This document shows, one piece after another, positions 3,037 through 28,404 of a DNA stretch of 44,383 nt; positions within the stretch are counted from its first letter, which is position 1; every line of letters begins with the position of its first letter. The notes under the pieces are model-generated. The model had not been told where the DNA came from, searched no databases, and saw nothing but the letters and a program-made list of their open reading frames with translations. The translations under genes and the position numbers were made by a program. Origin of the DNA: Candidatus Gaiellasilicea maunaloa (lineage in GTDB: Bacteria; Actinomycetota; Thermoleophilia; Gaiellales; Gaiellaceae); NCBI GenBank assembly GCA_024330215.1, contig JANDLU010000022.1, positions 1-44,383 of the forward strand, written 5' to 3'.

Positions 3037-4211
3037 TGGACGACGAAGCGTATTGCGCCGGCCGCCCGGCGAGCGCGCTCGAGCGCGTCGTCGCGGTTCC
3101 CGCCGGTCGCGAGGACGGCGCCGGCTCGATCGGCCCCGCGCAGGAGCGGCCCGAACCGCCAGCCCGGCGCGCGGTAGAGCCGCACCTCGGCGATCCCCTC
3201 GAGGGCCCGCGCCTCCTCGACCCCTCCGACCGAGCGCAGCTCTCCCTCGGGCGCGACGAGGAAGAGGACACACGCGCCGCCGACCAGACTTTGTGTTGAA
3301 ACAACACTTGCTTCTCTTCCCAGCGCGAAATCGAGCGCGAGGTCGTTCAACGGAACGCCCGTGGCGAGCTCGCAGAGCTCGGCATCGTGACCGCCGCCGA
3401 GCCGCGCCGCTAGCTCGACCACGCGGGGTCCAGCTCGTCCGACCCGGATCTGGGTGTAGGTCGGCCCGTTCCGGATCCCGAGCGCAGCCGCCGCGGCGCG
3501 AGCCGCGTCGACGAGCGCTTGTGTTGTTTCAACACTAAGTCTCGTCGGCCAGGCGTGCGCGAGCGCGACGCCGAACGCCGGTGGCTCGGCGGTCAGCCGG
3601 TCGGTCACCGTGAGCGGGTGGAAGACGCCCTCGAGCGAGACCGCGTTTACGGTCAGCTCCGGCCCCTTGACGTGCTCCTCGGCGATGAACGTGCCGTTGC
3701 GCGAGGCGGCGCGGGCCGTCTCGATCGCGGCCGGGAGCTCGGCCTCGCTGTGGACGAGGGTCAGGCCGCGCTGGCCCTGCCGGTCCGGCGCCTTGACGAC
3801 GCAGGGCACGGCCGGCTCGGCGAGCAGCCGAGGCTGAGGGATCCCGGCCGCGGCGAACCGCTCGCGCTGGCGCTGCTTCGACGTCGCGAGCACCGCGGTG
3901 GCGCCGTCGATCGGATGCGGCAGGCCGAGCCGATCCGCGAGCCGCGCGGCGATCCCGACCGTCCAGTCCGCGCCCGGGGAGATCACCCCGTCGATCCGCT
4001 GAGCCCGTGCGAGCCGGTCGACGGCCGGCTCGTCCTCGGTCGAGATCACCGCGCGTGTGTCGGCGTACCGGAAGCCTGGCGCGGCGGGATCGCGGTCGAC
4101 CGCGATCACGTGCAGGCCGCGCTCGCGCGCCGCGCGCAGGAGGCCGAGCTGCGCCGCGCCGGCGCCTAGAACGAGGAGACGCGGTCGCGCTCGAGGACTG
4201 TCCGCCACCAC
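3033..4211 (-). CDS. ATP-grasp carboxylate-amine ligase (first copy)
   Basis: A 392-residue ATP-grasp enzyme of the PurK/CarB-like type, joining a carboxylate to an amine through an acyl phosphate. The pre-ATP-grasp fold begins LLVLGAGAAQLGLLRAARERG. The nucleotide-binding segment includes VVKAPDRQGQRG, and the Mg-binding end reads VVELAARLGGGHDAEL. Two adjacent GTG codons (4211, 4208) are the only plausible starts, overlapping the upstream gene by about 45 nt. It is paralogous to the gene at 15760, and the two align almost without gaps. Two GTGTTG-N3-CAACAC palindromes lie inside the reading frame, encoding VVSTQSLV and LSVETTQALV. The context suggests attachment of an amino or organic acid to an amino sugar. 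Confidence 0.85.
   Translation of the reverse strand: MVADSPRARPRLLVLGAGAAQLGLLRAARERGLHVIAVDRDPAAPGFRYADTRAVISTEDEPAVDRLARAQRIDGVISPGADWTVGIAARLADRLGLPHPIDGATAVLATSKQRQRERFAAAGIPQPRLLAEPAVPCVVKAPDRQGQRGLTLVHSEAELPAAIETARAASRNGTFIAEEHVKGPELTVNAVSLEGVFHPLTVTDRLTAEPPAFGVALAHAWPTRLSVETTQALVDAARAAAAALGIRNGPTYTQIRVGRAGPRVVELAARLGGGHDAELCELATGVPLNDLALDFALGREASVVSTQSLVGGACVLFLVAPEGELRSVGGVEEARALEGIAEVRLYRAPGWRFGPLLRGADRAGAVLATGGNRDDALERARRAAGAIRFVVQ
3289..3311. repeat. GTGTTG-AAA-CAACAC palindrome inside the ATP-grasp gene (site 1)
   Basis: Six-base arms at 3293-3298 and 3302-3307 surround AAA. The left flank ACTTT is the same as at the site at 17589. The stretch is far more AT-rich than the surrounding gene and is read in frame. 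With site 2 (3517-3539) it forms an inverted pair about 228 bp apart, centre to centre. Confidence 0.7.
3517..3539. repeat. GTGTTG-TTT-CAACAC palindrome inside the ATP-grasp gene (site 2)
   Basis: Arms lie at 3521-3526 and 3530-3535 around TTT. Judged by its centre and flanks (GCTT before, TAAG after), it is in the opposite orientation to site 1. It is read in frame within the ATP-grasp gene, in a region where the paralogue at 15760 has the same length but unrelated codons. Confidence 0.7.
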
Positions 4212-11082: not shown

Positions 11083-11109
11083 GCGGTGCCGCACGCCCAG
11101 CGCGCCCGA

Positions 11110-11189
11110 CGTCCGGGGCCAGCCCCTGGACGTGTCCGCAACGGACGTGTCCCAGGGACAGTCCCTGGGACACGTCCCAAACGGACGGT
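11110..11189. repeat. Double-hairpin REP-like element with a 17-bp perfect palindrome
   Basis: A perfect inverted repeat has arms GGACGTGTCCCAGGGAC (11143-11159) and its complement (11161-11177) around a single A. A second, weaker hairpin CCGGGG/CCCCTGG precedes it near 11112-11129. Read on the minus strand, the element begins ACCGTCC (11189..11183) directly after the exporter's TGA, then 9 nt, then GTGTCC. That is the same design as the elements at 18372 and 28246. It may also act as a terminator for the exporter gene. Confidence 0.65.
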
Positions 11190-12593
11190 TCAGGCGGCCT
11201 CCGCGAGCGCGCCGACCGGCTGTTCGTCCCGCTTGCGGCCCGGGATCAGGAACGCGGCGAGTGCGCCGAGGCCGACGACGGCGCCGCCGATCACGAGCGC
11301 CGGGTTCATCCCGTCGACGTAGGCCTGGCCGCTCTCGTAGCCGCCGAGGCTCGCGAAGACGGAGGCCAGGACCGCGACGCCGAAGACCCCGCCGAGCTCA
11401 CGGACAGCGTTGTTGGCGCCTGACGCCTGGCCCTCCTCCTCCGGCCGCACGGCCGAGAGGACGATGTTCGCCATCGGGGCGAAGAAGAGCGACATCCCGA
11501 TCCCGGCGAGCACGAACGGCGCGATCAGTGACGAGTAGGCCACCGTCGGCGTCGAGACGAGGCCCAGCCACACGAGCGAGCCCGCCTGGAGCGTGAGGCC
11601 GATCCCGACGAGCGTCTTGCCGGGAATTCGATCCGACATGGCGCCCGCAATCGGGGCGATGAACATCGGCGCGATCGTCCACGGCAGGATCCGCAACCCA
11701 GCCCCGAGCGGCGAGTAGCCCTGCACCGTCTGGAAGAACTGCGAGAGCAGGAAGATCGAGCCGAACATCCCGAAGAACATGAAGAGCGACGCCGCGTTCG
11801 CGAGCGCGAACGCCGGCTTGCGGAAGAAGCGCATCGGCAGCATCGGCGCCGCCGTCCGCAGCTCCCAGGCGACGAACGCCGCCACGAGCAACCCACCGAC
11901 CGCGAGCGAGCCGACGATCTCGGGGCTCGCCCAGCCCTGGCCGTTGCCGCGGATCAGGCCCCAGACGATTCCGAAGAGACCGGTGCTCGCGAGCCCGAGT
12001 CCGGGCAGGTCGAGCCTGCCGCCCGGCCCGTGCGTCTCCTGCAGCCGCGAGAGCGCGAGCGGGATCAGGAGCAAGCCGATCGGAACGTTCAGCCAGAAGA
12101 TCCACTGCCACGAGAGCCCCTGCACGACCGCGCCGCCGACGACCGGGCCGAACGCGACCGCGAGACCGCTGATCCCGCCCCAGGCCCCGAGCGCGAGCCC
12201 GCGCTTCTCCTTCGGCACCGCCGCGCTCAGGATCGTGAGCGTCAGCGGCATCACGATCGCGCCGCCGAGGCCCTGCAACGCGCGGGCGAGGTTCAACAGT
12301 TCGACGGTCGGCGCGAGCGCCGCGGCGACCGAGCCGAGGGTGAAGACGCCGACGCCGATCGCGAAGACGCGCCGCCGGCCGAAGCGGTCGCCAAGCGCGG
12401 CGCCGGTCAGCAGCAGCACGGCGAAGGTCAGCGTGTAGGCGTTCACCGTCCACTCGAGGCTCTCGAGCGAGGCGTCGAGATCGCGACGGATCACGGGAAT
12501 CGCCGTCGTCACGACGAGGTTGTCGAGGGTGACCATGAAGAGGGCGATCGAGGTGATCGCGAACGTCCAGAGAGTCTTCGTTCGTGCTGCCAT
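11190..12593 (-). CDS. MFS drug exporter, DHA2 (14-helix) family
   Basis: A 467-residue proton-driven multidrug exporter of the EmrB/QacA/LfrA type. Fourteen hydrophobic segments are visible. Motif A appears as GDRFGRRRVFAIG, motif C-like glycine-rich sequence as ISGLAVAFGPVVGGAVVQG, and the N-terminus has LDNLVVTTAIPVIRRDL, typical of DHA2 proteins. The ATG at 12593 has a good ribosome-binding site, GGAAGGAG, 5 nt upstream, unlike most lead genes here. An operator lies between the -10 and that site, and the TetR gene follows immediately upstream, so induction by a TetR ligand is likely. The substrate is unknown. Confidence 0.92.
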   Translation of the reverse strand: MAARTKTLWTFAITSIALFMVTLDNLVVTTAIPVIRRDLDASLESLEWTVNAYTLTFAVLLLTGAALGDRFGRRRVFAIGVGVFTLGSVAAALAPTVELLNLARALQGLGGAIVMPLTLTILSAAVPKEKRGLALGAWGGISGLAVAFGPVVGGAVVQGLSWQWIFWLNVPIGLLLIPLALSRLQETHGPGGRLDLPGLGLASTGLFGIVWGLIRGNGQGWASPEIVGSLAVGGLLVAAFVAWELRTAAPMLPMRFFRKPAFALANAASLFMFFGMFGSIFLLSQFFQTVQGYSPLGAGLRILPWTIAPMFIAPIAGAMSDRIPGKTLVGIGLTLQAGSLVWLGLVSTPTVAYSSLIAPFVLAGIGMSLFFAPMANIVLSAVRPEEEGQASGANNAVRELGGVFGVAVLASVFASLGGYESGQAYVDGMNPALVIGGAVVGLGALAAFLIPGRKRDEQPVGALAEAA

Positions 12594-18354: not shown

Positions 18355-18371
18355 ATCGCCTTGTGCGACGC

Positions 18372-18518
18372 ACCGTCGTTTGCGAACACGTCCGGGGTCA
18401 AAGCCCGGCCACGTCCCGTGTGGCCAGTGCCGTCTCTCTACGCCGCGAAACGATGCGCTCTGTTGCACGCGGCGCACACGTCCGGGCTTTGACCCCGGAC
18501 ACGTCCCTCGCTGACAGT
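18372..18518. repeat. Inverted pair of REP-like hairpins
   Basis: Left half: ACCGTCG (18372-18378), 9 nt, ACGTCC, then the hairpin core GGGGTCAAAGCCCGG ending at 18408. Right half is the inverse, core 18482-18499, ending in TGACAGT at 18518. The core is TCCGGGGTCAAAGCCCGG in both. The halves face each other across about 75 bp of unrelated sequence. It fills most of the gap between two plus-strand glycan genes and has no coding potential. Confidence 0.75.
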
Positions 18519-18555
18519 GGATGAGCGAGCGCGGAATTCGTCGGAAGCTGGGACC

Positions 18556-19590
18556 GTGGCTACGCTGAAGGAGATCACCGTCCTCGTCTCCGCGTCGGGA
18601 GCGCCCGGTACCGCCGCGCTACTCGAGGGCCTGCGCGCGAACGGCGAGCGGACCGTTCGGCTCGTCGGAACGGACATGAGCGAGCGCTCGATCGGCCGCC
18701 ACCTCTGCGATGCCTTCCATCTCGTCCCGGCCGGCTCCGATCCCGGCTTTGCGGACGCGATCCTGGAGGTGGTCGAGCGCGAGGGCGTCGACTGCGTGCT
18801 GCCGCAGTCGTCGTTCGACCTGGAGGGCCTCGCAGCGCACAGGGACCGTTTTCCGGTGCCCGTGCTCGTCTCGAGCCCGGACACGATCCACCGCTCGAAC
18901 GACAAGGCGGAGACCTACGCGCTGCTGCAACGGCTCGGGATCGCCGGGCCGGACTTCCGACGGGTGAACGGCGCGCGGGAGGTCGAAGCCGCGGCGCGCG
19001 AGCTCGGCTACCCCGATCGGCCGGTCTGCTTCAAGCCCGTCTTCTCATCCGGCTCGCGCGGCTTTCGCGTCCTCGATCCGACCGTCGATCGCGCGCACCA
19101 GCTCCTGAACGAGCGGCCCGGCTCGGTGGCGATGCGGCTCGAGGAGGCGGTCGAGCTCCTGCCGGAGGAGGGCGGGCCGGACCTACTCGTGATGGAGCTC
19201 GCGACAGGCGCTGAGCGGACGATCGACGGGATCGCGGACGGCGAGCGGGTCGTGCTCGGCCATCCAAAGGCGCGGGAGGCGATGCGCGCCGGGCTCGCGA
19301 TGTACTTCGTCACGCTCGAGGACGAGGCGCTGATGGAGACCGCCGACCGGCTCGTCGCCGAGCTCGCGATCGAGCACTTCTTCAACATCCAGCTCGTCGG
19401 CGAGCACGTGATCGAGATTAACCCGCGGATCTCGACGATTGTCTACCAGGAGGACCTGAACCTGGCCTACCTCGGCGTCAAGCGCGCGCTCGGCGAGATC
19501 TCGGACGAGGAGCTCGTGGCGCTCCGCTCGCGCGTCCGGCCGGGCCGGACGGCGCTTCGCTACTTCGATCAGGTCGAGTGGGACGCGTAG
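18556..19590 (+). CDS. ATP-grasp (carbamoyl-phosphate synthase-like) protein, third copy
   Basis: A 344-residue ATP-grasp protein of a different subtype. The N-terminal Rossmann part is TVLVSASGAPGTAALLEGLRA with VGTDMSERSIGRHLCD. KAETYALLQRLGI leads into the ATP site (VCFKPVFSSGSRGFRVLD), and the metal-binding end is FFNIQLVGEHVIEINPRIS with E and N ligands. Such CarB-like proteins occur in surface-polysaccharide clusters with unknown substrates. GTG at 18556 is preferred; a GTG at 18517 lies inside the repeat element and has no ribosome-binding site, whereas GGAAG lies before 18556. The stop is part of the hairpin at 19588. Confidence 0.82.
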   Translation: MATLKEITVLVSASGAPGTAALLEGLRANGERTVRLVGTDMSERSIGRHLCDAFHLVPAGSDPGFADAILEVVEREGVDCVLPQSSFDLEGLAAHRDRFPVPVLVSSPDTIHRSNDKAETYALLQRLGIAGPDFRRVNGAREVEAAARELGYPDRPVCFKPVFSSGSRGFRVLDPTVDRAHQLLNERPGSVAMRLEEAVELLPEEGGPDLLVMELATGAERTIDGIADGERVVLGHPKAREAMRAGLAMYFVTLEDEALMETADRLVAELAIEHFFNIQLVGEHVIEINPRISTIVYQEDLNLAYLGVKRALGEISDEELVALRSRVRPGRTALRYFDQVEWDA

Positions 19591-28245: not shown

Positions 28246-28404
28246 ACCGTCCGCTGTGGCCGTGTCCGGGGTCAAAGCCCGGACGTGTCCCTCGGCGACG
28301 GGATTCCGCACCGGATCCAGCGCTCTGCGGTTGAATGTTCGATGTGACGTGTCTCGAGAGGCCGTGTCCGGGCTTTGACCCCGGGCATGTCTCACGTGGA
28401 CGGT
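28246..28404. repeat. Inverted pair of REP-like hairpins inside the metal-importer operon
   Basis: Left half: ACCGTCC (28246-28252), 9 nt, GTGTCC, core GGGGTCAAAGCCCGG to 28282. Right half is the inverse, with core 28367-28385 and GGACGGT at 28398-28404. Both halves match the element at 18372 in order and spacing. About 80 bp of unrelated sequence separates the hairpins. A weaker imperfect hairpin follows at 28407-28459 toward the ATPase gene. Nothing else is seen in this 261-bp gap. Confidence 0.75.

Follow-up and report, generated by a model that had tools for sequence, protein, structure and literature searches.

Hairpin repeat doublets and a flanked single-copy Y1 transposase gene in an actinobacterial draft genome

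The draft genome G000 (3.85 Mb, 97% complete) of an uncultured bacterium hosts a family of hairpin repeats which form doublets of recurrent geometry, and a cognate RAYT gene (the C113 gene) sits within inverted copies of the same repeats. The window, i.e., the whole stretch of 44,383 nucleotides analyzed, is contig C115 of this genome; G001 is the genome of a congener, G002 and G004 are genomes of two related genera. REP doublets (BIMEs) moved by a RAYT, the reading given in the initial annotation, are the best interpretation of these sequences, because 33 copies of the hairpin core were counted and the C113 Y1 gene lies between inverted ones. The doublets are very probably REPIN-like non-autonomous elements, which the cognate C113 RAYT would move as single-stranded DNA.

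Architecture and distribution of the repeats

Five halves, in which an ACCGTCC-like heptamer is separated by exactly 9 nt from an RYGTCC block, had been described in the window, and all are present (Table 1). Four (18372, 18518, 28246 and 28404) contain an identical 17-mer, CCGGGGTCAAAGCCCGG, and as initially annotated face each other around unrelated sequence, with tip-to-tip gaps of 73 and 85 bp. Searched with up to 3 mismatches, the 17-mer has exactly four matches in the window, all perfect, whereas 100 dinucleotide shuffles gave 0.57 on average and never four. The five halves had been regarded as alike. The frame is common to all; the core is common to four only, the fifth half (about 11105-11195) carrying other tips. 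Here the hairpin AGGGACAGTCCCT adjoins a third hairpin, GGGGCCAGCCCC, and the adjacent tips, CCAGGGGCTGGCCCCGG (minus strand) and AGGGACAGTCCCT, are both unlike CCGGGGTCAAAGCCCGG.

Table 1. Position of repeats, insert and transposase gene (window coordinates unless a locus or contig is named)
Feature	Position	Strand	Details
Doublet 1, left half	18372..18433	+	tag ACCGTC, minor arm, core CCGGGGTCAAAGCCCGG at 18392-18408, inner arm; heptamer/gap/block ACCGTCG/N9/ACGTCC
Doublet 1, right half, inverted	18457..18518	-	tag ACTGTC at 18518-18513; core 18482-18498; ACTGTCA/N9/GTGTCC
Insert holding doublet 1	18357..18563		~207 bp, TGAA at both ends
Doublet 2, left half	28246..28302	+	tag ACCGTCC; core 28266-28282; ACCGTCC/N9/GTGTCC
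Doublet 2, right half, inverted	28348..28404	-	tag 28404-28398; core 28368-28384; ACCGTCC/N9/ATGCCC
Mixed array, same frame	11105..11192 (elsewhere about 11105-11195)		tip B 11113-11129, then minor arm; tip C 11154-11166, minor arm, tag ACCGTCC at 11189-11183 (minus strand); half 11189 (-), ACCGTCC/N9/GTGTCC
C113 Y1/HUH gene	L051 1895-2437	-	single copy, 180 aa from ATG, NHFH...YLALNP
A core at C113 gene	C113:48888-48904	+	inverted relative to the next
A core at C113 gene	C113:49528-49544	-	

In the fixed ACCGTC-N9-GTCC pattern first proposed the gap is exactly 9 nt, but N9 is not free sequence, being made of N5 plus GGAC: its final four bases generally read GG(A/C)C, which yields GTCC-N5-GGAC, a motif matched 105 times in the genome vs. 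13 in the reversed control. The frame of the halves reads ACCGTCC-N5-GGAC-RY-GTCC-[tip]-GGAC-RY-GTCC-N5-GGAC, and the consensus of the G000 copies is gaACCGTCc-N4-cGGAC-ay-GTCCGGGGTCAAAGCCCGGAC-gt-GTCCc-N4-gGAC. The repeat signal is carried by the hairpin core rather than by the tag plus RYGTCC pattern, which alone, at 3 mismatches, is hardly informative (237 matches vs. 182 expected).

Three hairpin families coexist in the genome, which, unusually, have the outer frame in common and differ mainly in the hairpin tip. Tip A is the hairpin sequence GTCCGGG-GTCAAAG-CCCGGAC, with a 7-nt loop; 24 of the 33 G000 cores are perfect and 9 are one base off, six featuring GTCAGAG instead of GTCAAAG. Set in the same frame are tip B, CCAGGGGCTGGCCCTGG (15 in G000, 4 in G001, control 0), recurring as pairs 53 bp apart, and tip C, AGGGACWGTCCCT (25 sites in G000, 26 in G001, control 0). 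Minor hairpins of the GTCC-N5-GGAC type were also considered as true paired elements: 73-83% of the cells pair, yet without covariation, and since in addition the T-A pair of the minor arm is broken in 9/33 copies, they are described here as sequence arms. No covariation supporting the hairpin arms was found. Between species, the tag bases GTC are identical at 62/66 positions, vs. 75% in spacers (p 7e-5); the conservation of tips was set aside as evidence of selection because ortholog pairs had been picked by having tips, and the tag alone was used.

Copy numbers in G000 rest on pattern and model searches. Allowing up to 1 mismatch, the core occurs 33 times in G000 (reversed control 0), as expected from the prediction of further copies beyond the window, and 38 times in G001; it has no match in the 39 other genomes searched within the order. 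With a covariance model built on the A halves, 78 matches were obtained in G000, 61 in G001 and 29, 17, 12, 11, 7, 3 and 1 in seven genera elsewhere in the family, figures which are not copy numbers, as palindromic sites count on both strands; no matches were found in nine genomes of other families. The other genera of the family feature the same frame around other tips, GGGGTCWGACCCC or GGTGTCWGACACC, and tips of this type border Y1 genes in several of them. Tip A is genus-limited, and the A repeats add a new family, specific to this genus, to a known type of miniature mobile DNA. No Rfam family, terminator prediction or viral-contig match was found at the repeat sites.

A further inverted repeat of the window (3271-3307 and 3521-3557; 37 nt, 86% complementary, 213 nt apart), containing GTGTTGTTTCAACAC, is unrelated to the REPs.

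Y1 genes and their tips

Four Y1_Tnp genes, mutually divergent, are found in G000. The C113 gene is flanked by inverted A cores (Table 1), one 91 bp upstream of the ATG, the other overlapping the stop codon; the Y1 transposase anticipated in the initial annotation, single-copy and with the hairpins of the doublets on both sides, is thus present, and the palindromic repeats flanking it are also dispersed in the genome. In the C113 protein, Y1_Tnp (PF01797) exceeds the Pfam cut-off and is the sole Pfam domain called; no C-terminal helix-turn-helix extension was found in its 180 aa by Pfam. The NCBIfam model for REP-associated tyrosine transposases scored 65 bits (E 6e-18), below its cut-off of 80. 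The best solved structure for the profile is TnpAREP (4ER8, E 1.3e-6). The residues of the HUH and Y-x-x-x-NP motifs (H60, H62, Y119, N123 and P124) are invariant in 13 relatives.

A profile scan with the RAYT identified 80 named relatives. The best ones include Thermoleophilia MAGs, on which the probable placement of the lineage in Thermoleophilia is based. Named relatives come from many phyla; in 50 of the 73 tested, the gene is flanked by significant inverted repeats, most of which include GGGTCAGG. In the Y1 protein tree, the deep support of which is poor, frame-bearing genes are found in several branches.

A B tip lies upstream of the C122 Y1 gene, a C tip upstream of the C164 Y1 gene, and the same holds true for their relatives in the congener; the chance of a tip falling within 150 bp of a given gene is 0.1-0.3%. 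Three RAYTs are thus paired with a tip: A with C113, B with C122, C with C164. No A, B or C tip was found in the flanking DNA examined of the fourth gene, C57. The C113 locus of G001, a genome only 69% complete, is decayed, the start of the gene being deleted, and G001 keeps 38 tips despite this.

Doublets at orthologous sites and their interpretation

The insert holding doublet 1 is absent from G001:C218, G002 and G004, all of which have the two neighbouring genes in direct overlap (TCGTGA each time); a shorter, homologous insert is found in G001:C268, a second contig of the G001 MAG. Doublet 1 is thus a presence/absence polymorphism at one locus, involving a block of frame and tips, and this is the one clear locus at which a doublet may have been gained or lost as a unit. 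The flank tree (G000,(C218,C268)), which has 84% support only, would mean a precise loss of the insert in C218; alternatively, the C218/C268 pattern may result from lineage sorting, or from a MAG composed of more than one strain. As the insert extends 15 and 45 nt beyond the tags, what moves does not run exactly from one tag to the other, and this single case does not reveal the cleavage site. In the region 18517-18600 of the window, the insert parts two genes which overlap in relatives, and supplies an in-frame GTG start (18556) to the downstream ATP-grasp gene. G001:C218 (L163) and G001:C268 (L153) cover the same region, with ~90% identity to each other, and the MAG therefore mixes at least two lineages or has two copies.

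Seven other doublets, five head-to-head and two tail-to-tail, are at orthologous sites in G000 and G001, and many copies hence predate the species split. The mixed B/C array is located at a synteny break: its counterpart in the congener is in L164 (G001:C146), at about 2890-2970, the sequences being collinear to the right and different to the left, and G001 has tip A at the position of the G000 tip B.

The tip-to-tip length of nine head-to-head G000 doublets is 78, 90, 90, 90, 91, 91, 102, 102 and 102 bp. The clustering is significant against a uniform 75-105 distribution (p 5e-5, taking all 8-20-bp periods into account), by a test devised after seeing the data, and orthologous doublets keep their length within 1-2 bp; the sole mechanism offered, a fixed geometry of a two-half complex, may account for discrete lengths. 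Similarity of spacers between the nine doublets was rejected, nothing being common beyond the frame arms (2/36 spacer pairs at p<=0.02, about chance level). As units copied recently would have spacers in common, the family is possibly old, with little activity. Each doublet consists of two inverted REPs with a spacer and folds as one hairpin, and single-strand folding is strong (z -5.0 and -6.0).

In the mechanism proposed, the doublet would act as two REP hairpins set head-to-head, tags outward. Wherever the DNA is exposed as a single strand, as at a replication fork, each half would fold into the GTCCGGG-GTCAAAG-CCCGGAC hairpin, the tip of which would be read by the RAYT for identity, the ACCGTC tag and the GGACRYGTCC arms possibly serving as a guide common to RAYTs; the enzyme would then nick through its tyrosine and move the whole doublet as a single-stranded unit. 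Recognition of folded single strands and tyrosine nicking are suggested by analogy with the biochemistry of IS200/IS605 and TnpAREP (PMC8266576, PMC6006769); the guide role of the tag is a proposal in line with its conservation between species. Catalysis, the single-strand route, the role of tag and arms, and the cleavage site are inferred. Points against this reading are the unrelated spacers, the insert ends lying outside the tags, the lack of covariation in the hairpin arms, and the decay of the C113 locus in G001.

A two-part REP code may tentatively be envisaged, in which a family-wide frame is used by several RAYTs and every RAYT is matched to a tip of its own, which can be exchanged. 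A genome would then hold up to three such pairs, and the doublets would have discrete lengths (78, 90-91 and 102 bp) and free spacer sequence. It is rather unlikely that the frame is instead an older family-wide repeat or insertion target, the tips alone being the RAYT-specific mobile part and the doublets compound sites. Tips A, B and C do occur in one frame in one genome, the mixed array of the window included; other genera keep the frame around other tips; frame-bearing RAYTs are scattered over several branches of a tree with weak support; and the array in common with the congener has tip A there and tip B in the window. Yet the loci read include no distinct class of tip-less frame copies, frame and tips of doublet 1 are missing as one block from the empty sites, and the frame could be common because the RAYTs descend from one ancestor.

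Less probable still is that the repeats are immobile, regulatory sequences, acting either at the RNA level, as terminators or mRNA stabilisers, or as sites bound by a host protein. Such a role would fit their location between genes and the persistence of doublets with nearly unchanged tips at orthologous sites in species ~90% identical, pairs chosen, with a bias, by having tips; against it, neither a terminator call nor an Rfam family was found at the sites, doublet 2 resides within an ABC-transporter operon, between the ABC-3 permease and the ABC ATPase genes, and the repeats bracket a RAYT. By analogy with what has been proposed for REPs elsewhere, the doublets may have a secondary host role. 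That the doublets are degenerate IS200/IS605 ends (MITE-like remnants) and not REPs is very improbable: the transposase shares its Y1 HUH motifs with that of these IS and a gene between two hairpins resembles an IS, but its Y motif is YLALNP (class 2, Y-x-x-x-NP) and not the YxxxQ of IS200 (PMC6006769), the gene is single copy and far outnumbered by solo doublets, the four Y1 genes are divergent and not multicopy, near-identical IS, and no tnpB-like neighbour is evident among the ORFs read.

Relation to known REP systems

That the sequence matches no family recognized in the initial annotation is in agreement with the published descriptions consulted, since the repeats lack both a GTAG/GTGG foot and the architecture of the CGTC superfamily (Di Nocera 2013, PMC3733652); no GT[AG]G foot is present at the hairpin, the conserved tag being ACCGTC, 9 nt from RYGTCC. 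The REPINs of Pseudomonas fluorescens SBW25 (Bertels and Rainey 2011, PMC3116915) are similar in being inverted REP doublets, with a single-strand hairpin, a genomic RAYT, a spacer less conserved than the REPs, and evidence of gain or loss as doublets. In contrast to these, the core is flanked here by GGACRYGTCC arms, with the tag 9 nt away and no GTGG/GTAG foot, spacers are unrelated between copies, and copies are in the tens, not hundreds.

The C113 protein groups with genes of the TIRYT type (TIRYT/TIRtrons; Di Nocera 2013, PMC3733652), which probably correspond to TnpAY1 subclass 2.1 of Quentin 2018 (PMC6006769), a group in which no REP-like sequences were found. The C-terminal helix-turn-helix extension of this group was not found in the C113 protein by Pfam. 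The inverted repeats GGGTCAGG of the relatives are close to the TIRYT motif GGGGWSAS, and some TIR families include moderately abundant solo copies in dimers (Di Nocera 2013, PMC3733652). Tip A similarly starts with GGGGTCA; the own tip is GGGGTCAA, and its variant GGGGTCAG fits GGGGWSAS, but as a hairpin. Unlike in TIRYT/TIRtrons, the end sequence is here a genuine hairpin embedded in a longer frame and has been amplified in doublet form.

CGTC-tagged REPs (Di Nocera 2013, PMC3733652) also have a CGTC tag at the outer end and are mostly head-to-head dimers. Their tag is directly at the foot of an 8-9-bp stem starting with A/T pairs and closed by a 4-5-nt loop, whereas here it is 9 nt from the stem block, the stem starts with GTCC and the loop is 7 nt; moreover, CGTC REPs were reported without a flanked Y1 gene, and the present repeats flank one. 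E. coli TnpAREP/REP (BIME) is the closest solved relative of the RAYT profile (PDB 4ER8) and has hairpins flanking the gene, but REP sequence, tag and protein subclass differ.

In large-genome Actinobacteridae, only IS200-type members (subclass 1.1) of the protein family were reported (Quentin 2018, PMC6006769), and a literature search covering few subscription papers returned no papers on RAYTs with actinobacterial REPs or on Thermoleophilia IS200 transposases. In contrast to that survey, the probable Thermoleophilia lineage analyzed here has class 2 RAYTs with hairpin REPs. As frame and tip vary separately between genomes and RAYTs, the repeat family is a natural test set for the part of a REP which gives specificity.
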